The position numbers and the translations under genes are program-made. Positions 10,617 through 52,100 of a stretch of DNA of 52,299 nucleotides are shown here, piece after piece. The stretch is taken from positions 1 to 52,299 of the forward strand of contig JAKSYS010000442.1 in assembly GCA_022925895.1 (NCBI GenBank). The letters are read 5' to 3'. The number at the start of each line of letters is the position of its first letter. Position 1 is the first letter of the stretch. The notes beneath the pieces were generated by a model, which ran no database searches, was not told where the DNA came from, and saw only the letters and a list, made by a program, of their open reading frames with translations. Origin of the DNA: Fragilaria crotonensis (Eukaryota; Bacillariophyta; Fragilariophyceae; Fragilariales; Fragilariaceae).

Positions 10617-11681
10617 ATGTTCATGATGCGCCAAGCAGCTGCCGCTCGCCATTCGAATACTGCTATTGCAGTCTGGAGACCTTCCCAACGATTCTTGAGT
10701 GCTAGTATCGAGCATGAATTCGGTGAGGAACCTATAAGCAAAACGACACAATCTACCACCGTCCATTCCTCTCTCTCCTACGGTCCGATTGACTATGCTC
10801 GGGGCTGGGCATGGCAGCAAACACTGTTGCATCAGCGACTCTTGCGTCGTGCAAAACTACTTCAACAGCCACAAGAAAGCGTTGATGATGATCTACAGGA
10901 CGACACAATACTTTTGTTCGAACACCTGCCTGTCTATACGTTGGGACGTGGTGCCGATGAATCTCACATAACAGTCGAAATTCCGGACCGTGATCGTCTT
11001 TCACGGACCTGTCGGCGACAGCGGGGCTCAGGGTCGGCGCGACTATCCATGGACAAGAGTCCGTTATCCTCGACGACCATGACGACTGCCGACTCGGTCC
11101 AACATCTGTCGGAGATGGCAACGCCCGTTATAGCACCAAATGGAGTACCAATCTATCGCATTGATCGAGGTGGTGAAGTAACATTCCATGGTCCTGGACA
11201 ATTAGTCGTTTATCCCTTGCTGGATCTGAAACGCTGTCCCATGCAGCAGGATCTGCATTGGTATCTACGTCAAATCGAACAAGTGATCATCGATACACTG
11301 CACGACGACTATGACATTCCAACCACACGCGATTCTGACCATACCGGAGTTTGGTATCAATCGCCAAACCACAGGAACAACAAGGGTGACAATGGTCGTT
11401 TTGCCAAGGTTGCTGCCGTGGGAGTGTCGGCATCAAGATGGATCACCACGCACGGCTTTGCACTCAATGTTCGACCAACATTGCAGTATTTCGATGCATC
11501 CTACATTGTTCCCTGCGGAATCCATGACAAAGACGTGACAAGTATGGAACAAATCTGGAGAGAAGAAGGTAGGGAAACCGAACTTCCGACAGTCGACCAA
11601 GTGGCCGCGAGTGTCTTGAACAAAATGGAATCTGTTTTTGGAATAACGGTAGAGAAGAATGCAATCATTAAAATACATTAG
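10617..11681 (+). CDS. Octanoyl-[acyl-carrier protein]:protein N-octanoyltransferase (LipB/LIPT2 family)
   Basis: This enzyme moves octanoate from acyl carrier protein to lipoyl-domain lysines, the first step of lipoate synthesis for organellar 2-oxoacid dehydrogenases and glycine cleavage. The 354 codons are intact. Family blocks in order are LLFEHLPVYTLGRGA, YRIDRGGEVTFHGPGQLVVYP, LLDLKRC, TGVWY, KVAAVGVSASRWITTHG with the conserved Lys, and IVPCGI with the catalytic Cys. The first 35 or so residues (MFMMRQAAAARHSN, rich in Ala and Arg) look like an organelle-targeting peptide, probably mitochondrial. A Ser/Thr/Arg-rich insert of about 45 residues separates the LGRGA and RGGE blocks, as often seen in algal versions. 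The next gene on the same strand starts 760 bp away. The chemistry is confident; the compartment is inferred. Confidence 0.92.
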   Translation: MFMMRQAAAARHSNTAIAVWRPSQRFLSASIEHEFGEEPISKTTQSTTVHSSLSYGPIDYARGWAWQQTLLHQRLLRRAKLLQQPQESVDDDLQDDTILLFEHLPVYTLGRGADESHITVEIPDRDRLSRTCRRQRGSGSARLSMDKSPLSSTTMTTADSVQHLSEMATPVIAPNGVPIYRIDRGGEVTFHGPGQLVVYPLLDLKRCPMQQDLHWYLRQIEQVIIDTLHDDYDIPTTRDSDHTGVWYQSPNHRNNKGDNGRFAKVAAVGVSASRWITTHGFALNVRPTLQYFDASYIVPCGIHDKDVTSMEQIWREEGRETELPTVDQVAASVLNKMESVFGITVEKNAIIKIH

Positions 11682-18328: not shown

Positions 18329-19624
18329 TCATAATAACTCCCTAGCCTCAAATTCATCGCCGTCCTCGACGACCTCCTCATCCATCGATTGAGCACTGCT
18401 GTCAACGTCGGAATCGCCGTCGTCAGATCCACCGGCCGTCAAACCCTGCCTCATATTCATTACTTCCCCCGGTGATGCACGCACAATCAAGCTACCGGCA
18501 TCAACGTGCGTCAACAAATCCATGTATTGTGTCACAAGCAAGACATCCATAACATGCGAAAAATCCTGATTCCATCCCGACGCAGCACTCTCCTTCATTC
18601 CCGCGGCAAGACATTTGCGTTGTTGTGCAGTTCCCATTCCATGCAAATACGCCACTTCCACACCCGCTTCCGCTCGTTTCACTCGAATCACCTTATCTGC
18701 TTCACCACGATGCACCATTGCCTCCTTCCTTCTCCGACATGCTTCCACTTCGTTCATGGCACGCACCACGGACGGCTGTGCGGGTCGTACATTGGTGCAG
18801 AGGGTTTGGACCACATGGTAGCCAAAGTCGTATTGGCTCAGGACGAGGCACAATCGCGTGTGCACCGCGTTTGCAATATCACCACGACGACCACCAAGGA
18901 CGTCATCCAGAGTCATGGCAGGAACTTGGGCGCGGACAACATCAAAGATATAGGATTGGATTTGGATGTGAGGGTAGGTCAATTGATAGTAGGCTAAGTA
19001 CGCCATTTCAGGTATCACCTTGTACTGGACCGAAACTTCAATGTGTACAAAGACATGGTCCTTTGTTTTCGTCTCACAGGCGACGTCAAGTTGTTGAATA
19101 CGAAGCGATATCCGCGATGCTATGGTTGAGTAGGGCCAGCACATCAGGTGCAAACCAGGGCCAAGAAGTAAATCAAATCTTCCGAAGTTCTCAGTTAGTC
19201 CAATCTCTTGAGTACGGACACATTGACAACATAGTCCTCCATGACTGAATAGTGGAATTGACAAATCCTTTGCTGGATTGTGATGGTTCAAAAGATTATG
19301 GTGAATATGGTGGATCAAAGAGTGACCTTGCGCGTCATCGAGGCTTGGAAATTCAGGAATTGGTTCTTGATTTTGCTGCTCGTGTTGAGTCTGTGGAATC
19401 CCAACCACCAAGGGGACTTCATAGTACAGGGATGGTGATACAACCAGATCACGCTCTGGACGATGGTATTGATTCTGGCGCCGTCGTCGTCGATTGTTCG
19501 TTTCCGAGTACCATTCGTCGCGAAACGCATCGGCACCGCTGTCCGCCACATTCTCCGAAAGCAATGGTTCACGCCCAAATTTCGAGGATTGCTTCCTTCT
19601 CATTCGAAGCGGTACCATCTCCAT
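18329..19624 (-). CDS. SPFH/band-7 domain protein, hypersensitive-induced-response (HIR) type
   Basis: The 431 codons are intact. After a charged N-terminal region of about 130 residues comes a Cys-rich anchor GGLCCQCV, a likely palmitoylation site. The SPFH domain follows: GRFDLLLGPGLHLMCWP, SLRIQQLDVACETKTKDHV and VSVQYKV are the blocks that define plant HIR and prohibitin-like proteins. A coiled-coil-like helix rich in Ala, Glu and Arg (MNEVEACRRRKEAMVHRGEADK) drives oligomerisation in the family. The C-terminus is acidic (Asp/Glu-rich). Such proteins form large oligomers that scaffold membrane microdomains. The long N-terminal extension is unusual, since plant HIRs start close to the Cys anchor. 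Its role in this organism is unknown. Confidence 0.88.
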   Translation of the reverse strand: MEMVPLRMRRKQSSKFGREPLLSENVADSGADAFRDEWYSETNNRRRRRQNQYHRPERDLVVSPSLYYEVPLVVGIPQTQHEQQNQEPIPEFPSLDDAQGHSLIHHIHHNLLNHHNPAKDLSIPLFSHGGLCCQCVRTQEIGLTENFGRFDLLLGPGLHLMCWPYSTIASRISLRIQQLDVACETKTKDHVFVHIEVSVQYKVIPEMAYLAYYQLTYPHIQIQSYIFDVVRAQVPAMTLDDVLGGRRGDIANAVHTRLCLVLSQYDFGYHVVQTLCTNVRPAQPSVVRAMNEVEACRRRKEAMVHRGEADKVIRVKRAEAGVEVAYLHGMGTAQQRKCLAAGMKESAASGWNQDFSHVMDVLLVTQYMDLLTHVDAGSLIVRASPGEVMNMRQGLTAGGSDDGDSDVDSSAQSMDEEVVEDGDEFEARELL

Positions 19625-25606: not shown

Positions 25607-26824
25607 ATGCGCCGCTCCAAGCCATATTGCTGGTCGGTTCTCTCCCTTTCAACGGTATTGGGCATTCGACAATCGGCTCCTCCGCGATTTTCTCTCAGTC
25701 GAAGACTCCCATACTGTTCACATACCGCAGTCATGGACCGAGCCGAAGATCTCGACGATGCACCTATTCTCATGATTGAAGGGGATGAATTCTACGTGAA
25801 TCACGACGCAATATGCCGAAGCTTCTACGAACTTGAACAATGGAACAATGGGATATTGCAGCCTCTCAGTCTTGAAGAGGAGTACGACCTACGCAGAGCC
25901 CACAAGACATTTTCTTTGCGTCACAAGATGCGAACCCTGATCTCGACGCAACTCTTGGATCCAACCAACTCCACATCTAAAAATAGCAAGGACGACGACG
26001 AAGCAACGCAAGTGCCTCGCATCTCTGTACTTCCTCACAATGCTCGCGGGATCGTCAACCTTGGTACAGTGCAACGTCGGGTTTGCATTCAAGAAATTGA
26101 TCAAGGTGTCTTCGGATCTGCTGGGACAGGCGCGACCACTTGGGAGTCGTCCATTGCCATGGCCTTGCTCGTATCGTCACAACCCAATCTTCTTAAGGGT
26201 CATGTCCTTGAATTGGGATCGGGGGTCGGGTTGGGAGGCATTCTCACGGGAATGATGGTGATGCCATCGTCCGTATTGTCACTCACTTTGACGGATGGGA
26301 ATGATGAAGTTTTGGAAGCGTGCCGCGACAACTGCCAGCGCGCAAAACTGGACCATCCCAATCTACGCATTCTGCGATTGGATTGGAATGATTTGCCAAA
26401 ACCATCACTGAAGTATGATACAATTCTGGTCAGTGATTGCGCTTACAAGTACCCTGATGTTTTCGCTCTTGCTGCGGCGTGCAAGGATTCACTGCAGGAA
26501 CCAGACGGGAAAGCTCACATTTTTGGCCCCTACAACCGCGGGGGGCTACACGATTTACTTCGTGAATTGAAAGAGCGTCAAGATATGGACGTCGAAGTTA
26601 GCAGTATTGAGATGAGTCGGTACCGACTGCAATCGTCATTCGCTACTGGCAATGCCTGCAGCCGGAACGAAGACGAAGCCATGTATGCATCGCGGCACGT
26701 GGTCAAGTTCCTACACATCACCGCAATGCATAAGAATCGACAGCAAATTGCTATCTCATCTGCATTCATCGAGTATGGATGCTATCGATTAGTGATGTAC
26801 GTAGAAGCCGTGATGCAATCGTGA
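25607..26824 (+). CDS. Class I SAM-dependent methyltransferase, METTL21/EFM-like (lysine or small-molecule methyltransferase)
   Basis: Two starts are possible: 25607, which adds an Arg/Ser-rich 42-residue leader that could be an organelle-targeting peptide, and 25733 (MDRAEDLDDAP). The Rossmann fold is plain: GATTWESSIAMA before motif I, VLELGSGVGLGG as the SAM-binding motif I, LTDGNDEVLEACRDN as the acidic loop, RLDWNDL, then VSDCAYKYPD where the family usually has a D-x-x-Y pocket. The C-terminal third carries KAHIFGPYNRGGL and no extra domain. The family methylates lysines of elongation factors, chaperones or histones; the substrate here cannot be told. It lies 270 bp after a transposon end and is intact over 405 codons. 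Confidence 0.82.
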   Translation: MRRSKPYCWSVLSLSTVLGIRQSAPPRFSLSRRLPYCSHTAVMDRAEDLDDAPILMIEGDEFYVNHDAICRSFYELEQWNNGILQPLSLEEEYDLRRAHKTFSLRHKMRTLISTQLLDPTNSTSKNSKDDDEATQVPRISVLPHNARGIVNLGTVQRRVCIQEIDQGVFGSAGTGATTWESSIAMALLVSSQPNLLKGHVLELGSGVGLGGILTGMMVMPSSVLSLTLTDGNDEVLEACRDNCQRAKLDHPNLRILRLDWNDLPKPSLKYDTILVSDCAYKYPDVFALAAACKDSLQEPDGKAHIFGPYNRGGLHDLLRELKERQDMDVEVSSIEMSRYRLQSSFATGNACSRNEDEAMYASRHVVKFLHITAMHKNRQQIAISSAFIEYGCYRLVMYVEAVMQS

Positions 26825-28080: not shown

Positions 28081-31000
28081 ATGACTGTACGTTACATTCA
28101 AGGCAAGACGAAGGGCCCTGGTGGCTCATATCCGTCAAAGCAATCGAAGCATGGTTCCGACGTGGAATCGCATACCGAGTTTTCTGTTCTCGCAGCCGAC
28201 GACGCTGCGAGCATTGTGTCGCAGCTAGAGAATCCGAGATCCTTTTTACGTGGTGGAACGGATGATGATAAAATCAAGTTGGTCGAAGAACTCTTTCACA
28301 AGGGAGCAGCGATTGGAGTCGGTGTCTGGGTCATTTTGATGATTATGGTGTACTTGTTCTCTCCTTATGAGCTTTACGAGGAGCCTTCAGGATTCGAGCA
28401 GCTCTGCCATATTGTTGGAGGCACTCTTCTGATCGTCTCGAATGGTGCCAGACTTCTTCCCTTGCTCATGAAAGATAAGGGCTACAAGATTCTGAAGAGT
28501 GGCTTCATTGTTGGGTCATTAGCTGTGCAGTTGGTGGCGTTGGCATCTAACTACATCATGGCCTTCAGACCAACACCAGTTATGTACGATGAAATTAGTG
28601 GGCTACGCTTTCATCTCGTTCGATGGGCAGAGTGGATTCCCCTGGCCTTTCTCATGGCCTTTCTCACCATTAACGTCGACGCACCTTTCCGAGGGCCCAC
28701 TCCTAAGGTTGACTTTGTATTCCCTACCATGATGGCACTGAGTACCTCCGCCGGATTGCTCTTCCCACTTTGCCCCGATGAATACACATGGTGGGGTGTC
28801 ATGGGCACCTCTTGGTCATTGTTCAGTATGATCTACGTTGTAACCTATCAGAAGGGTGTTGACTACTTGGAATTGAAGGGTGAAATCAAGGCCGGCGCCT
28901 CCAGGTCCAAAGCAAATGCTCAACAGGCTGAGCGGCTTGATCTTACCAAGTCCAGTTTCTCGTTGTGCATTGCCATTAGTGTCACCTGGACTTTCCTTGC
29001 TCTCATGTTCACCTTTTTCAGTGTTGTGACCAAGCTTGCCAGGAAGGATAGTTGGCTCAGCAACCCATCTATCCCAGTGGCCTTGACCTGCACCTTCGAA
29101 GTTATGTCCAAGGTATGGTACCTTGGGGCCCTGTTTGAAGCATACGGCAAGGTCTTTGACGAACAGGTCAGGGGTCATCGCCGACTTGAGGAATTGCGAA
29201 GCTTCATGTCCGCGGTGTGGGCATCATCCTCTGACGTGATCGTGTTCTGCTCGAAGAACAACGATATCGTCAGCGCTCGATCAGTCCATCGTTTCTCAAA
29301 ATCCTTGGAAGTTCAGCCGACACTCTAGGCTTTGACATCACAAACGAAGTCTCACTTGTCCTTGAGATCGATCAAAGTCAGGATTTGTTCTCCGTTGTCG
29401 CCATGGATCTTGATAGACCGGTGATGAGAAGTGATCTTTCTAGTGTGTCCTATGACTTGAATACCAGATCGTTCAGGATCTCAAGGCGGATGATCTTAGT
29501 GCTCCTGAAGTTAACCTTGCACGCATGGCGAAGCTTGCGATTGACGCTGTCACTCTAGCGCCGGCGTTACTAGAAAGGATTAATCCAACTAAGTTCGTCG
29601 CTGAAGTCGGCAGGAAAGGAGATCTCTCGAGCGAGATGTCTTGCGAGGTTAACATTTCGCTATTGGAAGGAAGGTCATGCGTCTTGACTCTGCGTGATAT
29701 CTCCGAGCGTCTTCATCGCTTCCAAATTGAGAAGAAGCTTGTCAAGGAAGTCACCTCCAGAAAGAAGGACGAGGAAGCCAACAGATTCACTCGCCATGAG
29801 GTGAAGAATGCTCTCTTGGCTGCGATGGGGATCCTGGACCACCTGAAGGAGTTGATGCAGCGCAGTAATGTGTTACCGAAGAGAAACACGGACGAAAAGA
29901 GTATGTTTCTCCTTTCCGACAATGCCCCTATGGTATTCATGGACATGGGTGGCGACGACGACACCACTTCTCCTCAGACTAAAGAAGTGGAAGAAGCGTT
30001 CAACGAGCTGGATACTACTCTCAAGGATGTTATGGACACAATTTTGGACGAAGCTATGGCGCGTGAGGTAAGAATTGGTACCGGCGATGATCCATTGACT
30101 ATTCTCGATGCTTTTTCTAATTTTCCTTGTTTTCCTCTAGATTATTTACGGCGATTACACACCGCGCAAGGAGCGCATGAATGTTCCTGATGTCCTCGAC
30201 TCTCTCCGCCGACGCGCCTCTCGCAGATTTCCGATGGATATCGTGCCTGCCGGTCCTCTTTTCCCCGTCCTTGAAATGGATCGTCAGTTGCTACGATACA
30301 TTTACCGAAATGCCGTATCGAATGCTTGCAAGTATGGAAAGAAGGATGGCGTTGTCAGTACTCGCGTTACGTACGAACGGAATTTGCAGGTCCTGACGAT
30401 GCAAGTCATCAACCTGCCAGGTGTAGGTCACGATAAGCTTTGCCAGCTCTCAGCCTCAGAGGCAGCGAAAGTGTTTGAGCAGGATACTCAGCTGAAGGCT
30501 ACGCAAGAGGGCACCGGAAGAGAGGCCGAATCGATTCGCAATGAATCATCTGGAAACGGTGCCTGGATCATGAAGAAGGTGCGCTTGCTTGTTTTGTTGT
30601 TGTTGTACTTTTGTTTTCGCCCCTTGGTGACGCTAACAATTTTGCTTCGACAGTGCGCCGAATCAATGAATGGAAAAGTTGATATCAAATTCGAGAAGAC
30701 GAGAACTGTTTTACTTTCTCGTGTGCTGTCACCCCAGTTTACATGCCAGAACGAAGCATGAGGATCTCAACCCCAAGTGTATCCAACGAGGAGTTCGCCA
30801 TCCCAGAAGGTACTTGGGGTGTTGTGATTGACGACTCGAGGATCCAGCGTAAAGTGTTGGGAACGTTCATGCAGTTGATTGGTATTGACAAGTCAAGGCA
30901 AGTGGGTTGAACTCCTCGAACGTTTGTGTAGCTGCCTCTACTAATACTTTCTTTCCATTTCACGCAGACAAGTTATCCTTGGGGCCACGATGGAAGAGAT

Positions 31001-31637
31001 TCACGGCTTTGGCGATGCTGTTCAAAAGCTTTTGAGGCAAAATCCTCGTGACAAGTTCCTGTTAATCGTGGATGAGAATCTGGATATTGTCGATGGCGGA
31101 ACTCGTCACGAAACGGTATCCGGTTCTATAGCGACACAGAACCTTTTGTCTCAACTCGACAATAACACCAAATCGCGTGTGTTGGCATTGATTCGCAGTG
31201 CAAACGATTCGGACATGGACATTCAAGTGTATAGAAAGAGAGCCCACGGGCATTTGCGCAAGGAGCCTCTCAAAAAGACTGGCAATCTTGAGCTAATCAA
31301 GCCTTGGTGGATCGAGCGGTTTGCCTCCAACCATGACCAGGACATGGACGATTCCAGTGGAAACAACACACTTGATTTTGCTGTCGCGGATGATGTTCGC
31401 GAGTCACTAGGAGTGATCAACGCGTTGTCGGCAGTGGCGAGTGAGGCTCGATGGCAGGCAATTCGCGAGAAACTGCATGCTCTCAAGGGTGACTTGAAAG
31501 CAACGATTCCTATGGGAATCATTGGGAAGGTCGTAACCCAGATCGATCAACTCATGGCGAGTGATAGGCTACCACGAGATTTCAGCAACAAATGGATCCG
31601 ACTTCAGGGTGAAATAGAGACAATTCTCGCTACCTAG
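28081..31637 (+). CDS. Hybrid sensor kinase 1: 8-TM rhodopsin-like sensor, PAS, histidine kinase, receiver, HPt
   Basis: The ATG at 28081 gives a 75-residue soluble start, then eight predicted helices (about 76-94, 107-126, 138-162, 178-198, 209-230, 236-258, 290-315, 328-350). Helix 4 starts R181-W-A-E184-W and helix 8 has E-V-M-S-K344, matching the Arg/counter-ion and retinal-Lys positions of type I rhodopsins. A PAS-like segment ends LTLRDISERLHRF. The H-box is FTRHEVKNALLAA (His codon 29795), then the N-box IYRNAVSNACKYG and a variant G2 SGNGAWIMKK; G1 reads NLPGVG, lacking the usual Asp. The receiver has VIDDS, VDEN (Asp codon 31071) and HLRKEP. HPt has KLHALKGD (His codon 31476). Introns are 30068-30140, 30579-30653 and 30898-30967 (GC-AG). 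One-base losses occur near 29281, 29484 and 30712. Confidence 0.75.
30898..30967 (+). other. GC-AG intron in sensor kinase 1
   Basis: The exon ends ...AAG TCA AG, then GCAAGTGGG opens the intron and CACGCAG closes it; the codon AG|A and CAA GTT follow, giving K-S-R-Q-V. The tandem paralogue has a GT-AG intron (36021-36114) at exactly the same codon phase. AG|GCAAGT is the known consensus for GC-AG donors. Confidence 0.8.
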
Positions 31638-33248: not shown

Positions 33249-36200
33249 ATGTCTTACAGTCAGCGATCGCAGAGCATGTCGAAGGTCCACAGATCACCCC
33301 ATATGCCGAAGCGAGAATCTCACTCCAAGAATGAATCGGAGACGACGAACCCGAGGTACAAAGAGTTCACATTTATGGCCCCTGACGATGCTGCGAGTCT
33401 TGTCTCCCGTCTCGAGAATCCCCGTTCCTTTCTCAATGCAGCGGCCGATACTGACAGGGTTAAACTTGTTGAGAAACTCTTCCACAAAGGTGCCGCGATT
33501 GCTGGATGGCCTTTCGATTCTTACGTTGAACCAGCTGGCCGACCAGCTCTGTCATGCGGTGTTGGTTGTCGATGCTGCCCATGATTCTGATCAGAATCCT
33601 CAGCGGCTTCATCGTTGGCTCGCTTTCGTTCAGTTGGTTGCGTCCTACATAATGGCCTTCAGACCTACCGTCATCTACGATGAAGTTAGCGGGCTGCACT
33701 TTCACATGGTTCGATGGGCTGAATTCACTGCCCTCGCCTTCCTCATGGCCTTTCTCACGGTAAACGTCGATGCGCCATTCAAGGGTCTTGGCTCGCATTC
33801 ACCGAAGGTGAACTTTGTTTTCCCGTCCATGATGGCTCTGAGCACCTCCGCTGGAATGATATTCCCATTTTGCCCCAACGAATACTTATGGTGGACTGTC
33901 ATGGCCATCTCTTGGTCTCTTTTCTTTACTATCTATGTTGTAACCTTCCAAAAGGTGGTCGACTACTTGGAATTGAAAGGGGAACTCAAGGCCGGCACCG
34001 CCAAGGCCAAAGCCAACGCTCAGCAAGCCGAGCGCCTTGAAATAACCAAGTCCAGCTTCAATTTATGCCTATCCATCAGCATATCATGGACTATGTTGGC
34101 TCTTATCTTCACATTTCTTGGTGTCGTCACCAAGCTCGCCAGAAAGGATAGTTGGGTCAGTAATCCGCATCTCCTCGTCGCAGTGACGTGCGTCTTCGAA
34201 GTCATATCCAAGATCTGGTACCTCGGCGCTCTCTTCGAAGCCTACCGCAAGGTCTTTGACGAGCAGGTCAGGGGGCGTCGCAGGCTGGAAGAACTTCGCA
34301 GCTTCATGTCCGCGGTGTGGCTGTCATCGTCAGATGTCATTGTTTTCTGCTCAAAGAACGGTGGTATTGTAAACGCCAAGGTCAGCCCAGCCTTCATCAA
34401 TACACTCGGAGGTTCTGCTGAGGCCCTCGGCTTAGACGCTGATGATCCGGCATCATTGATGCTTGAGATTGACGCCAGTCAAGATATGTTTTCAGTTAGT
34501 TGCATGGACCTCGATCAAGCCATCATACAAAGCGACATTTCCAGTGTTAATACCGACAGTCTGAACACGAGGACTTACCGGATCTCCAAGGCAGAGGACA
34601 TCAACGCCCCTGAAGTCAATCTCGCACGCATGGCGAAGCTTGCTCTTGACGCTGTTACTCTGGCTCCAACGTTGCTGGACAGTAGGATCAACCCCACCAA
34701 GTTCGTCGCTGAAGCGGGCAGGAAAGGGTTCGCTGCGGCTGAAATGTCTTGCGAGGTTCACATTTCACTTTTGGAAAGCAGGTCGTGCGTCTTGACTCTG
34801 CGCGATATCTCCGAACGTCTTCATCGCTTTCAAGTGGAGAAAAAGCTCGTTGAGGAAGTTACTTCCAGAAAAAAGGATGAGGAAGCCAATCGATTCACTC
34901 GCCATGAGGTGAAGAATGCTCTCCTGGCTGCCATGGGAATCCTTGACCACTTGAGGGATCTGATGCAGCGCAGTAATGTGTTACCCAAGAGAAACACGGA
35001 GGGTTTGGTTGTCGTCTCCGAAACTGCTTCGATGTCATTCTTGGACATCGGTGGAGATGACGACAGTGTGTCTCCTCAGACCAAGGAAGTCGAAGCTACG
35101 TTCAACGAGCTTGACGCCACTCTTAAGGACGTTATGGACACTATTTTGGACGAAGCGATGGCTCGCGAGGTAAGTCATTTGATGTTTTGCATTCGGGATT
35201 GCGCCGCCCTCCGACGGGTATCTCAATAAACACTATCTGTTCCTACAGATTATTTATGGGCATTATACCCCAAGGAAGGAACGCATCAACGTCCCTGATG
35301 TTCTCGCCTCGCTTCGGAGAGGAGCATCGCGCAGATTTCCATTGGATGTGGTTCCTTCTGGTCCTTTGTTCCCTGTCCTTGACATGGATCGTCAATTGCT
35401 GCGGTACATCTACCGAAATGCGATATCGAATGCCTGCAAGTTCGGTCGAAAAGATGGCGTTGTCAATACTCGCGTCAACTACGATAGTCACTTGCAACTG
35501 CTGACGATGCAAATCATTAACTTACCTGGAGTTGGCCATGAGAAGCTCTGCAAGCTTTCTGCCGCTGAAGCGGAAAAGATCTTTGAAAAGAACACTAAAC
35601 TCAAGGCCACGCAAGAAAGCGAAACGGATGGAGCCGCGTCCAATGATGACTCGACCGGCAATGGCGCGTGGATCATGAAGAAGGTACGAATGCGCTGCCT
35701 CGGGTTCACATCCTTATTTATCCGGTGTGACGATGACTTACAATTGTTTCTTTGTATCAGTGCGCGGAGGCCATGAACGGACGGCTGGATATCAAGTTTG
35801 AGAAGACGAGAACGGTATTTTCGTTCTCATGTGCATGTTCTCCAGTGTTTATGCCAGAACGGCAAACACTGCATCAACGGCCTGTCGGCTCCGTCAACAT
35901 GTCAACCTCCGAAGAATTTGTCATTCCCGATGGCACGTGGGGCGTTGTGATTGACGACTCAAGAATCCAAAGGAAGGTTTTGGGCACATTCATGCAGCTT
36001 ATTGGAATTGATAGAGCTAGGTACGTGCGGTGATCACTAATACATGTCTTCCTCATGTTTTGAAATGATGCGACTCATATGGTGTTTCATTCCCTCTGTT
36101 GCGAAAAACTACAGGCAAGTCGTCCTTGGAGCTTCGAAGGACGAGATTCATGGCTTTGGCAAGGAGGTTCAAAGGCTGCTGAAGGAAAATCCGAATGATA

Positions 36201-36780
36201 AATTCATTTTGATCGTCGATGAGAATCTTGACATTGTGGATGGAGGAACTCGTCACGAAACGGTATCTGGTTCCATTTCGGTTCAAAACCTGCTGTCAGA
36301 ACTTGACCAAAATTCGAAGTCTCGTGTCTTGGCGTTGATTCGCAGTGCCAACGACTCGGACATGGACATTCAGGTGTACAAGAAGAGAGCTCATGGACAT
36401 TTGCGAAAGGAACCGCTCCAAAAGACTGGTAATCTCGAATTGATCAAGCCATGGTGGATCGAACGTTTTGGGGTGGAAGTCCCATGATGGATGATTCTAG
36501 TTTCAACAATTCGTTGGAATTCGGAGTGGCCGATGACGTTCGCGAATCGCTTAGCGTTATCAGCGCCCTCGCCGTCGTGGCGAGCGATGCTCGTTGGCAG
36601 GCCATTCGTGAGAAATTGCACGGCCTCAAGGGCGATTTAAAGGCAACTATGCCAATGGCCACTGTGGGCTCGATCGTTGCCGAGCTGGATCGACTCATGG
36701 GCCAAGAAAAGGTACCGCGGGATTTCAGCAACAAGTGGCTCCGTCTCGAAAGTGAGATAGAGTGCATTCTTGCCGTGTGA
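33249..36780 (+). CDS. Hybrid sensor kinase 2: tandem paralogue with damaged N-terminal helices
   Basis: The domain order equals that of the gene at 28081-31637. From helix 3 on, the two are closely similar at protein level. Helix 4 has R-W-A-E-F (Arg codon 33712) and helix 8 E-V-I-S-K (Lys codon 34210). The PAS end is LTLRDISERLHRF, the H-box His codon 34903, the N-box IYRNAISNACKFG, then STGNGAWIMKK. The receiver has VIDDS and VDENLD, and the HPt KLHGLKGD (His codon 36619). Introns are 35170-35248, 35684-35760 and 36021-36114, all GT-AG. The first helix and part of the second are cut down relative to copy 1 (33500-33610), with a frame change, and a shift at the TTTTGGGG run near 36470 separates the HPt. 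Either this copy is degenerating or the N-terminus is mis-assembled. In copy 2 the helix-4 Trp after Glu is Phe. Confidence 0.7.
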
Positions 36781-42624: not shown

Positions 42625-43827
42625 TTAGTTGAGAACATTGACACAGTTCAAGTCCTCTGCTGCCTGGACCAAACGTGCGGCCATGGCCTCTTCACCCGCA
42701 CGAAGGGCCATGCGAGGGTCGTAGTACTTCTTGTTAGGCTTCTCTGGACCATCGGGGTTGCCGATCTGGCCCTGGAGGTAGTCGTGGTACTTGGCTTCAT
42801 AAGCGCGAATGCCGTCCCAGAATGCCCACTGGGTGTCGGTATCAATGTTCATCTTGACGACACCGGCCTCGATGGCGTACTGAATATCTTCTCTGGAGGA
42901 ACCCGATCCACCGTGGAAGACGAAGAGCATGGGCTTGGTGTCGTCGGTGCCGAGCTTCTCTTGGATGTACTTCTGGGTGTTGTGGAGGATTTCTGGCTTC
43001 AATTCCACGTTACCAGGGGCGTAAACTCCGTGGACATTTCCGAAAGACGCAGCGCAAGTAAATGCGGCGTTTGGAACCTGGGAAAGCTGCTCGTAGGAGT
43101 ACCAGACTTCCTCGGGTTGGGTGTAGAGACGGGATGAGTCAACATCGGAGTTGTCGACACCATCTTCCTCACCTCCGGTGACACCGAGTTCGAACTCGAG
43201 GAGGCAATCAATCTTGGCCATGCGCTCAAGGTACTTCTTGCAGATGGCAATGTTCTCTTCGAGTGGTTCCTCGGACAAGTCAAGCATGTGGGAGGAGAAA
43301 AGAGGCTCACCGAATTGTGCGAAGTGTTCCTCGTTGGCTTCAATGAGGCCATCGAACCATTGCAACCAAGACTTTTGGCAGTGATCAGTGTGGAGGATCA
43401 CAGGAACGCCGTAAAGGGCAGCAACCTCACGGACGTGCTTGGCTCCAGCGATGCACCCAGCAATGGAAGCAACATCATCAGTGTTGTCGACAGTCTTACC
43501 GGCGATGAACTGTCCACCTCCCTTGGAGAAGGTGACCATGATTGGTCCACCGTACTTGGCAGCGGCCTCCATACAGGCATTGATGGAGTTGGTTCCAACA
43601 ATGTTGACTCCAGGGATGGCGAACTTCTCCTTCTTGGCGTGTTGAAGGAGATCGACAAGTGCCTTTCCAGTCACAACACCAGGCTTAACCGATGCTGGGA
43701 GCTTGGTAAAGGTAACTTCCTTGACGGCGCTCATGTCAAGAGCCGTGGTGCGAACACCGTTGATGCTAGCACCTGGGGCGAACGCACCAGTTGAAGCGAT
43801 GAGAAGAGCGGCGATGCAGAACTTCAT
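42625..43827 (-). CDS. Class II fructose-bisphosphate aldolase, plastid-targeted
   Basis: Condenses dihydroxyacetone phosphate and glyceraldehyde-3-phosphate to fructose-1,6-bisphosphate (Calvin cycle and gluconeogenesis; reversible). The ATG at 43827 is chosen over the upstream 43956 because MKFCIAALLIASTGAFAP is a diatom bipartite presequence: signal peptide, then the AFAP-type motif with Phe at the transit-peptide start. The mature enzyme is the zinc-dependent class IIA type: VILHTDHCQKSWLQW holds the catalytic Asp and first zinc His; LLEFELGVTGGEEDG and VFHGGSGSS are family blocks for zinc and phosphate binding; VVKMNIDTDTQWAFWDG is close to the C-terminus. It is intact, with no introns or frame breaks over 400 codons. 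The gene runs towards the decayed transposon. Confidence 0.93.
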   Translation of the reverse strand: MKFCIAALLIASTGAFAPGASINGVRTTALDMSAVKEVTFTKLPASVKPGVVTGKALVDLLQHAKKEKFAIPGVNIVGTNSINACMEAAAKYGGPIMVTFSKGGGQFIAGKTVDNTDDVASIAGCIAGAKHVREVAALYGVPVILHTDHCQKSWLQWFDGLIEANEEHFAQFGEPLFSSHMLDLSEEPLEENIAICKKYLERMAKIDCLLEFELGVTGGEEDGVDNSDVDSSRLYTQPEEVWYSYEQLSQVPNAAFTCAASFGNVHGVYAPGNVELKPEILHNTQKYIQEKLGTDDTKPMLFVFHGGSGSSREDIQYAIEAGVVKMNIDTDTQWAFWDGIRAYEAKYHDYLQGQIGNPDGPEKPNKKYYDPRMALRAGEEAMAARLVQAAEDLNCVNVLN

Positions 43828-44775
43828 GGTGTAAGTTACAAGACAGTTTAACAAATGCGATGAAATTATGGATGGTGTTGTCGCCACAGATCGTGCGCAA
43901 GTGACATACTCGAGTACGTTGTTTTTCACCAAGATCTGGAATCTGCGGAACCCCATTGTCGTACGTCACCCTCGACCCTCGTATGTATTGAACACGCCTG
44001 AGTACGTTCACGTACGAGTCTTGCGGCTATGCCCTAGTTTGTCGTGTATCGTAGAGATTCTTAAAATTTGAATGCCAGGTGCCAGGTGCAACAGTGCTGG
44101 AGAATGAGCAGTAGATCGCAGACTCGCAATAAGCAGTACAAGTACATACGTACTCGAGTACAAGGTGAAAAAGAAGCATGCCAGTATTACTTGTACTAGT
44201 ACTGGTGTAGGACAGAAACACAGTGCGCCGATTCACCGGATACACCGCTCCGTACTCGGTACTGAATGTGATACTGTAGTACAGTTTAGTACTCCGAGTA
44301 GTGCGAAATACTGTAAGTACGAGTACAGTGTACTACCGGTAGTACCTCGTACCTTGCGTCGCGATTTGGTCGGAGACAATCTGACCGTACAGCGGTCGGA
44401 CCACACTGTCAGGGTTGAGGTTCCTGTATTTGGCAAAGTGCGGGGCACGGAACGTTCCTTCCAAGTACACAGAAACCCATACAAAGATCAAGCGAAGAAC
44501 ACGTTGCACTGCTACGCCATTCTTGAGCCATTATGGCATCATTGCCCGTTACTCGTCAGCCGGCAGTTGGGCGTGACGTAGGCTGGGTAGGATCGTACTG
44601 GGAACATCGACGGAAAAGAACAGCGTCACCCAGTTTGCGAACAAGCCCTGCCAGTGGCAGGCCATCTGGACAACGGGATTCGCTGGCCTTCGAACACGCA
44701 GTGCAAGTCGCAAACATATTGAACATATATTGAACATTTTGTACACACACATCTTAAAATTACGAATCTTCAACC
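43828..44775. other. Divergent intergenic between aldolase and a small secreted-protein gene; GTAC-rich
   Basis: The two genes are transcribed away from each other, so both promoters are here. 44140-44355 is the densest GTAC-palindrome tract of the window (ACGTACTCGAGTAC, TTGTACTAGTACTGG, GTACTACCGGTAGTAC). No gene seen. Confidence 0.5.
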
Positions 44776-49162: not shown

Positions 49163-52100
49163 ATGTCCAAGTCGGCTTCTTTCGGAGAATTGATGCACCG
49201 ATTTGATGGATCAAACACAACAGGAGTGTTCAGAGTCACATACAAGAACACATTCTATTACTACTTCACAGAGAAATCAAGGCAGATACGGTACCCATGT
49301 CCACTTAACAGTGCATGGAACGAAAAAGTAATGGAAGCAGCCGCAAATGTGCTAGTCATTCCAAGCACAAGATCAAGACCCGCTCGACACAATGATAACT
49401 ACACCTGTCAACACGGAGGCTACAACGGGAGGAAGGATCGAGACATTGTTGAGCAATCACCGAGCAAACGAGCAAGGATAGGAGATACTGGTGCGGCCGC
49501 TGTAATGATTGCTGCTGATGCTTCTAGCTCAAGTTACTGGCCATGTAGCCCAGAGGCATACCGAGTGTTCAAACCACCAAAGAAACATGGGACAACGAAT
49601 TGCGAGGATGGGAATGATACTGATTTCGATTCTGAAACTCCAATGGAAGCACTTCAGAGAAGGATTGTACTGCTTCAAAGCGTTCATGAGGAAGAAAATA
49701 ATTGGAGGAATGTTGTGCAAGGTAGAGATATCGACAACGTGTGTACCAAAGCTGAGATATGCGCTGTCAGGCAAAGGGCGACGTTTCTTTGTTATGCGTA
49801 CCGATTGGCTCTTGCAAAAATGAATGAATGGACGTGGCAAGACTGTTGCACTGAATCTTGTAAGGTATTGAACACTGTTGGTATGACGCAAGCAACCTTC
49901 TATAAAACCATCGCAAATTGGAACATTGTGTTCCGTAATTTTGAATGCTTCCCAAACCCAAACTTGTCTGTTCAGTGTGGGAAACGACCTCTTCCTCGAG
50001 TTCTCGAAGTGTTTCCATGCGCAAAGGAGCAGATTGTTGCATTTGGCGTCGAGAACTTGTCACATCTTTCAATTGAAGCAGTCTATCAATTCGTTCATTC
50101 GTCTGTAATCCCAAGGCTGGCTGCGTTGTGGAAACGTGAATCGGTAGTAGACGAAGATACTGCAGAAACGTCAACATTGAGTACAAGTACTACAGCCATT
50201 AATCCTACTAGCAATCCTGTCGATGTCGATCAAGATGAGGATGATATTGCGCTATTCCTTCGCGCACATAGACTTAAAAACATGAGCTTCACAACAGCAT
50301 GGCGCTGGATGCGATTACTCGATTCAAGTATGATACGAGAAGGAAGAGCTTCTACGTCGATGGCCATGAACGTGAAGATGTTGTCGCACATCGAAATGCA
50401 TTCTGCAAGAACTACCTTACCGTGCTTGAGCCACGTTGTCGGCGTTGGATTCAGCTTCCACTCAGTGAAGCTGCTACGATCAAGACCTTAGACACAGATT
50501 TCGGACATCATTACTATGATATTATATCTGATGAGACTCGTTGAGTTTCACGTTGACTATTGGAAGAATTGCATATCAAGAATCAAAAGGGGAGAAGAGG
50601 CAGCGCGAGATGTTGAAGCAAAACAAGCATACGAGTGTCATCATCAGTCAGGCCCTTGATGATTATTGGTCAAGATGAGTCTGTCTTCGCGCAGTATCTA
50701 CTGTCCTCCAAACAATGGGTTGGGCCAAAAGGACAAGTGCCACTTCTGCCCAAGTCGGAGGGCGATGGGTATATGCTTTCTGCGTTCGTGTCACGCGAAT
50801 TCGGCTTGGCAGGCAGATGACAGAGGATGAGTTACAAAGAGTGAATATGGCAAGGCAAACAGCAGCTCGGCGGTGGAAATTACCTCGATACAACAGCTGC
50901 GATGGAAATCTTGGGAACAACGAGGAAGCCGATTTTGTTGGAATCCCCTTCGTAAAATACTTGTTCATCGGAATCAATAATCAGGGTTATTGGAATTCAT
51001 ACCACATGAGTCTTCAGCTTGAGGATGTGGTTGATTGCCTACGAATCCTATATCCAAGCTTCGATTTTGTATTTTTGTTCGATCATTCTCAGGGACACGC
51101 TCGCAAACGTGATGGTGCACTCAGTGCGATCAACATGCAAAAGAACTTTGGAGGATCAAAACAGCAGATGAGAGACACAGTCATAATGTCACAAGAGGGT
51201 TATCTGGGCACACACTCACCAACCCTGGGCATCGGAGACACACAGTCAATGGTATTCAATACTGACGACTGTGGCCCATGGTATTTGACACCAGAGCAAC
51301 GTGACTTACAACGTCATGATCGAATAATGGGGAAAAGAAGCAAGCCAATTGAAAAACAAAGAAGACCCTTCTTGAAGAGCTCAACGAAAAGGGTGTGACG
51401 CTCCAACAAAAACGCGGGTACACTAAAGCCGAACTTCAGGAATTGGCAAGAAACAATTCAATCGAAACTCACAAAGAAGTCGACAAAATCCTATCTGGAT
51501 GGGAAGGAAAATCTAAAGGCATGCTACAAGTTCTGTGGGAAAGAGGACTGATTGATCCAAGTGAGTTAGATAAATACACTGTCGACGGAAAGAAAGACAC
51601 AATTTCAGGGAAGATTGACTTACGGTATTCCCTACGCCATCTCATCGCAGAGTGTGCTGATTTCAAGGATGAGGAAACGGCACTTCAGTACCTTGGATCT
51701 CAGCTGGGCATCACGGTACTTCTAACACCAAAGTTCCATGCCGAATTAGCAGGGGAAGGCATTGAATTTTGCTGGGGTCACGCAAAGGCTTTCTACCGAC
51801 GGGTTCCTGTATCTCAAAAGAGGGGACGAGAGAATTTCAAACAACTTGTGAGAGATTCAACGTGTTCAATCAAGGAGTTGACCAAAGAAAGGATGGGAAA
51901 GTTTGCTTCGAGAGCACGCGCATATATTTGTACTTACCATCATCTTTTTGAGAGTCAGCAGAGAATGAGGCAGCAAGGTCGTACCCACAACTTCATCGCC
52001 ACAAGTATAACAGAAGATCAAGGACTTCTGTACTCGGAAATCCAACGCCTGATGAAATTGTTCAAGTCTCACAGGTGTGCATTGACTTCGATCGTGGCTT

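Follow-up and report, generated by a model that had tools for sequence, protein, structure and literature searches.

The 52,299-nucleotide window analysed here, that is, positions 1 to 52,299 of contig JAKSYS010000442.1 from the diatom Fragilaria crotonensis (assembly GCA_022925895.1), carries a gene which very probably (roughly 0.88) encodes a histidine-kinase rhodopsin, an eight-transmembrane (8-TM) enzyme rhodopsin that would run a light-driven phosphorelay via retinal on Lys344. A preliminary description of this region had proposed a histidine-kinase rhodopsin with kinase, receiver and histidine phosphotransfer (HPt) domains on one chain, and sequence comparison and structure modelling support that interpretation. 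The fold, the conservation of key residues, the domain order and the integrity of the gene were established computationally. The parts of the gene are listed below (aa, amino acids; BR, bacteriorhodopsin; model, AlphaFold2 prediction).

28081..31637, + strand: whole gene, 8-TM rhodopsin, PAS-like linker, histidine kinase, receiver and HPt; spliced product of 1113 aa
28261..28365, + strand: TM0, extra N-terminal helix, aa 61-95 (model helix 2-33)
28390..28569, + strand: helices A and B (TM1, TM2), aa 104-131 and 141-163 (model)
28573..28614, + strand: B-C loop with beta hairpin, aa 165-178 (model strands 105-109, 116-118)
28615..28677, + strand: helix C (TM3) with R181, E184 (counterion position) and W185, codons 28621-28635 (model and conservation)
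28717..28899, + strand: helices D and E (TM4, TM5), including W237; helix E extended (model and conservation)
28900..28917, + strand: E-F turn, aa 274-279, low model confidence
28918..29037, + strand: helix F (TM6), extended, with invariant W303 (28987-28989) aligned to BR W182 (conservation, profile alignment)
29068..29154, + strand: helix G (TM7) with E340 (29098-29100) and the retinal-lysine candidate K344 (29110-29112) (alignment to BR D212/K216)
29155..29720, + strand: linker with conserved RRLEELR and PAS-like alpha/beta domain, approximate borders (strands and helices 347-491 in the model of the relative P0010)
29795..29797, + strand: phospho-accepting His573 in the H box RHEVKN (42/42 members of at least 980 aa)
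30177..30750, + strand: HATPase_c domain, approximate borders; N box from 30309, G box at 30552 (PF02518, motifs)
30810..31300, + strand: receiver, approximate borders; D869 (30830-30832), phospho-Asp D926 (31071-31073), S968, K989 (motifs, P0010 model 785-931)
31420..31637, + strand: HPt-like helical domain with His1061 (31476-31478), stop at 31635-31637 (motif, P0010 model helices 956-1043)

Predicted fold and conserved residues of the sensor

The sensor model (aa 61-366, built from 28 sequences with no templates) has a predicted local distance difference test (pLDDT) score of 86.8 and a predicted template modelling (pTM) score of 0.87, and consists of eight long helices with a beta hairpin in the B-C loop. 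Its fold is that of the rhodopsin bundle, as the preliminary description anticipated: the 50 listed Foldseek matches and the 50 listed VIA-align matches are all microbial rhodopsins, the best in both being the 8-TM enzyme rhodopsin Rh-PDE, which VIA-align pairs with the model at 16% identity (model 7-303 versus 47-310 of 7cj3). For the model of a full-length relative, P0010, the top VIA-align match is again Rh-PDE. The extra helix ahead of the canonical seven is likewise recovered, in the eight helices of the model, in the structural alignment with Rh-PDE, which begins within TM0, and in a profile alignment with Rh-PDE that runs from TM0 on. RWAEW (residues 181-185, codons 28621-28635) lies near the start of the fourth model helix and EVMSK (residues 340-344, codons 29098-29112) places Lys344 in the middle of the eighth, with the previously noted distance of 163 residues between Arg and Lys confirmed in the sequence. 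The surplus length attributed to a long E-F loop does lie between helices E and F, but the loop itself does not hold up: the additional residues are mostly helical, both helices are extended and the modelled turn spans only about six residues. Helix F indeed lacks W-x-x-Y-P; its central W303 is kept in 89/89 members, whereas the Tyr-Pro positions are mostly Leu/Ile and Val/Ala. The position of the BR proton donor D96, taken as R+14, is Leu/Met/Phe195, which argues against a pump. Overall, the sensor has the type 1 rhodopsin fold, a Lys at the helix-G position and acidic residues at the counterion positions; retinal binding is predicted, and the model suggests cytosolic termini and the TM0 topology of an enzyme rhodopsin.

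Three protein searches yielded a family of at least 92 proteins (P0001-P0092) besides this gene, which is a lower bound because two of the searches scored only about 8000 candidates sharing most words. A sensor-only protein search returned four proteins, all family members, including P0030, which is a fragment encoded on the window's own haplotype contig. No sensor was detectable in P0060. Among the 93 sequences, with partial members counted only in the columns that they cover, K344 is conserved in 88/88, and no other column with at least 90% conservation holds a Lys. R181 is present in 90/91, W182 in 91/91 and E184 in 87/91, so the helix-8 Lys and the helix-4 Arg and Glu singled out earlier are retained across the family. 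Position 185 is occupied by Trp (82 of 91) or Phe (9), W237 is found in 88/89, and residue 310 is aromatic in 86/88. Position 188, a Leu in this gene, is Leu in 73, Cys in 17 and Val in one of 91 members. At position 340 (n=88), Glu occurs in 52 members, Asp, which gives the classical D-x-x-x-K, in 35 and Gln in one. In a tree of 77 sensors, in which some long branches are unsure, one clade has Asp at 340 in all 30 rows; the other side, which includes this gene, has Glu except for Asp in P0042 and P0049 and Gln in P0020.

All members whose names give an organism are from diatoms, namely, Fragilaria crotonensis, Fistulifera solaris (N-terminally cut), Thalassiosira profunda and Conticribra weissflogii, and the family includes transcriptome entries with cut names starting with Amphip and Thalass. 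In the sources, family members are named only histidine kinase, histidine ATPase or hypothetical protein. The viral contigs searched contained no relative.

Phosphorelay modules and proposed mechanism

Counts for the kinase half refer to the 42 sequences of at least 980 aa, including this gene, and exclude members such as P0016, P0020 and P0027. The DHp His and the G-box Gly are present in 42/42 and the N-box Asn in 35/42, and the receiver residues Asp926, Ser968 and Lys989 are each found in 42/42. The HPt His is present in 29 of the 40 members that reach it. Where it is replaced (seven times by Gln and once each by Phe, Leu, Val and Arg), the rest of the L-K-G-D motif is mostly kept, as if the His-less bundle retained a role without phosphotransfer. 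The P0010 model contains strands and helices that fit a PAS-like domain, then a helical hairpin and an ATP-binding domain, a receiver in which beta and alpha elements alternate, and a helical bundle at the end; its Foldseek search gave 118 matches at E<=0.001, with the 50 listed being mostly histidine kinases but also phytochromes and one NifL. No PAS match was obtained with Pfam for the PAS-like domain, and the only Pfam match in the kinase half of the proteins scanned is HATPase_c, below its cut-off (PF02518, E 1.9e-4, 22.3 bits versus 26.4 at this locus). The motifs and the secondary structure of the P0010 model agree with the proposal that kinase, receiver and HPt share one chain; rhodopsin, histidine kinase and response regulator are thus predicted to be joined as in histidine-kinase rhodopsins (HKRs). 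Pfam found no guanylyl cyclase in the four exon open reading frames (ORFs), and the coding sequence stops at 31637, after the HPt-like domain.

Our inferences on the binding of retinal, the control by light and the course of the phosphate are as follows. Retinal would be attached to Lys344 through a Schiff base, and Glu184 and Glu340 would occupy the counterion positions; isomerisation of the retinal by light would move helix G, and the movement would pass through the conserved RRLEELR linker and the PAS-like domain to the kinase. Autophosphorylation of His573 would then change with light, in either direction, and phosphate would travel from His573 to receiver Asp926, on to HPt His1061 in the same protein and finally to soluble response regulators. 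According to the description of Rh-PDE, Lys296 binds the retinal, Glu164 and Asp292 take the counterion positions, and truncation of TM0 destabilises the chromophore (PMC7644710); these three positions and TM0 are all present in the window sensor. As to the sign of the response, the relay of the green-algal relative Cr2c-Cyclop1 is described as inhibited by light (PMC6284317).

In the genome, nine matches to carotenoid oxygenase (RPE65) exceed the Pfam cut-off, on contigs C549, C193, C222, C452, C482 and C636; some are probably exons of one gene, and these enzymes could supply the retinal. The 15 receiver-domain matches at other places in the genome are possible partners of the relay.

Alternative readings, gene integrity and genomic context

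Recognition of the sensor as a rhodopsin from its sequence is weak and points one way. Among 38 more distant members, four match Bac_rhodopsin at E<=1, the best being P0091 (E 0.0029), whose 17.6 bits fall below the cut-off of 24.6. When a full-length profile of the 38 members was compared with 177,635 Protein Data Bank (PDB) sequences, the first match was bestrhodopsin (E 0.004), followed by Rh-PDE (0.013, 0.023), with which the profile aligns from TM0 to R-Y-A-E-W. Initial hhalign comparisons with 28 sensors scored weakly. In an unguided alignment, a profile of 77 sensors places R181, E184 and W185 on R82, D85 and W86 of BR and R120, E123 and W124 of the channelrhodopsin ChR2, and W303, E340 and K344 on W182, D212 and K216 of BR and W223, D253 and K257 of ChR2. 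The ChR2 score (27.7) exceeds those of all 150 full and 150 block column shuffles (best 24.6), and with helix C withheld, BR still registers at W182, W189, D212 and K216. In the haloarchaeal rhodopsin set, 24 of 80 loci were taken from a contig scan and three with internal stops were dropped. A PF01036 search of the F. crotonensis genome gave no match; as the control genomes yielded nothing either, this result is uninformative on other opsins there. If the sensor is an opsin, the family is an example of a rhodopsin branch that lies below the Pfam detection limit.

Several observations weigh against a histidine-kinase rhodopsin. No Pfam rhodopsin match was obtained at E<=1 for the window protein and its 27 closest relatives, or in a single-sequence Pfam scan of the exon ORFs; phmmer against the PDB found no rhodopsin, a 15-sequence sensor profile (A2) matched no PDB sequence at E<=10, and profile A1 retrieved no microbial rhodopsin and only an animal opsin, at 0.71. 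Values for single stretches are weaker than those given above (bestrhodopsin 7pl9, 0.86 and 4.1; Rh-PDE 7cj3, 0.018 and 0.032), hhalign probabilities are low (ChR2, 12%; BR, 0.2%), and the half-length ChR2 alignment mis-registers when helix C is withheld. Even the top row of the Foldseek search superposes loosely (TM 0.55/0.62, rmsd 6.7), helix F is devoid of the Tyr-Pro of canonical rhodopsins, and R181 and E184 are replaced in one and four of 91 members, respectively. In the kinase half, PF00072 and PF01627 have no match at this locus, the receiver and HPt assignments draw on motif, order and predicted structure, and the HPt His is absent from 11/40 members. Furthermore, P0016, P0020 and P0027 have the sensor and no recognisable H box, reflecting either cut gene models or real kinase loss.

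The distance from known opsins, the altered helix F and the fact that retinal binding is a prediction from sequence and model would also suit a pseudo-opsin, in which a rhodopsin-fold sensor makes no use of retinal and another ligand or the membrane state drives the kinase. We consider this improbable, given that the invariant K344, the sole Lys in the conserved columns, and the two acidic counterion positions (E184 as above; Glu or Asp at 340 in 87/88) are what retinal chemistry demands and what a pseudo-opsin would be free to lose; W303 and the aromatic residue at 310 additionally match the BR retinal sandwich, W182/W189. An unrelated MASE- or MHYT-like 8-TM sensor, with RxxEW and ExxxK arising by chance, would fit the lack of a Pfam or NCBIfam rhodopsin match in the window sensor, and 13 of the 38 distant members weakly match a MASE3-PAS-kinase model (best E 0.0044); this reading is already disfavoured and, next to a fold whose listed matches are all microbial rhodopsins, deserves hardly any credence. 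Equally little credence can be given to a decayed gene or assembly artefact, although stops and frame breaks could suggest a pseudogene: positions 28081-31637 form no single open frame, the model requires three introns and three missing single bases, and the tandem copy described below lacks part of the sensor. Each break corresponds to one missing base (before 29279, 29482 and 30709) which is present in contig C296, and intact relatives, including transcriptome entries P0067 and P0068, retain the kinase His and the receiver residues. Single-base gaps are usual for assemblies made with nanopore R9.4.1, Canu and Pilon. The draft genome of F. crotonensis is described as such an assembly (PMC9476933).

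The introns of the candidate histidine-kinase rhodopsin gene are as follows.

30068-30140, + strand: intron 1, GT-AG
30579-30653, + strand: intron 2, inside the HATPase_c region
30898-30967, + strand: intron 3, GC-AG border, inside the receiver region

In the searched assembly (62.1 Mb, in which the window contig is C384), C296 looks like a second haplotype of the window contig. The two are 98% identical across 6.2 kb surrounding the gene, and two other pieces of the window, including a high-copy repeat, map to C296 in the same order. Conversely, C296 lacks one T (window 28648) and an in-frame CTC (28700), both present in the window. P0001, a protein from another assembly, is 99% identical and has no break at the first two gap sites. 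When the genome was queried with three proteins, no family loci turned up other than the gene, its tandem paralogue and the counterparts of both on C296.

The tandem paralogue is about 74% identical to the candidate histidine-kinase rhodopsin gene and retains RWAEF and the retinal-Lys candidate (34210-34212). Its TM0-TM2 region is damaged or mis-assembled in both contigs, with about 270 bases gone in C296, and the loss may reflect either decay or assembly error. At the site of the GC-AG intron 3, the paralogue has GT-AG. P0006-P0008 are intact relatives resembling the paralogue type. P0003 and P0005 lie on contigs of length 11,538 each, so the tandem pair may be old. The paralogue and the neighbouring ORFs with Pfam matches are:

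33249..36780, + strand: tandem paralogue, domain order as in the candidate histidine-kinase rhodopsin gene, start codon unsettled
10617-11678, + strand: lipoyl ligase domain ORF
18332-19624, - strand: SPFH/Band 7 ORF
25607-26821, + strand: lysine methyltransferase ORF
42628-43956, - strand: class II fructose-bisphosphate aldolase ORF

Six other long ORFs of the window had no match in the Pfam scan. A repeat at 49163-50491, with 40 scored genome copies at 99-100% identity among 129 candidates and no Pfam match at E<=0.001, is probably a recently active transposon.

Relation to known enzyme rhodopsins

Histidine-kinase rhodopsins are known from green algae. Enzyme rhodopsins, characterised by eight helices, are described from fungi, green algae and choanoflagellates in a 2025 review (PMC12558739), and among the titles listed on the subject from an open-access library none describes a diatom histidine-kinase rhodopsin. 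The window protein is best placed among histidine-kinase/enzyme rhodopsins as a novel form that has no cyclase, ends in an HPt-like domain and belongs to a distinct sequence branch; its diatom relatives suggest a family of light receptors named in databases only as kinases or hypothetical proteins. If so, a photoreceptor class would be added to a major group of photosynthetic plankton, retinal light sensing would be tied without intermediates to a two-component system that has its own phosphotransfer step, and optogenetics would gain new parts, among them a natural double-Glu counterion with which to test how rhodopsins reach far-red light.

The closest structural counterpart, SrRh-PDE of Salpingoeca rosetta (7cj3/7d7q), likewise has an 8-TM sensor with TM0, R-x-x-E-W in TM3, acid-x-x-x-Lys in TM7 and a C-terminal enzyme. 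That enzyme is a phosphodiesterase, whereas the window gene encodes a phosphorelay; Asp292 of SrRh-PDE contrasts with Glu340 in the clade of the window gene, and the Trp165-Trp264-Lys296 spacing (99, 32) is shorter than that of W185-W303-K344 (118, 41). Bestrhodopsin (7pl9), unlike the window gene, consists of tandem rhodopsins fused to a bestrophin channel. The kinase-receiver-HPt order is that of the bacterial hybrid kinases ArcB and BvgS, which have a built-in HPt and a sensor that is not a rhodopsin. COP5/HKR1, Cr2c-Cyclop1 and Vc2c-Cyclop1 are described as combining rhodopsin, histidine kinase and response regulator, with eight helices and cytosolic termini (PMC6284317). By these descriptions, green-algal HKRs and two-component cyclase opsins share the one-chain plan, but they run on into a guanylyl cyclase and reach 2210-2549 aa, whereas the window protein ends with the HPt-like domain at 1113 aa. 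We also considered the 'GPCR rhodopsin-like' family of Seminavis, compared by text only; the available text of that paper does not contain 'histidine kinase' (PMC7335047).

With respect to the counterions, the nearest parallel is NeoR (Rhizoclosmatium rhodopsin-guanylyl cyclase 3), in which D85/D212 of BR are described as replaced by E136/E262 (PMC7655827). As in E184/E340 here, both aspartate counterions are Glu; by the same description, NeoR carries an additional acid, D140, four positions beyond E136, where the window gene has L188, and the enzyme of NeoR is different. More tentatively, and rather doubtfully, the family may form a diatom-wide, separate branch of enzyme rhodopsins with a one-chain His-Asp-His relay, in which the Glu184/Glu340 clade has NeoR-like photochemistry. 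Such photochemistry would imply far-red or bistable UV/far-red switching, and would provide diatoms with a rhodopsin-based colour or red-light sensor beside phytochromes and aureochromes.

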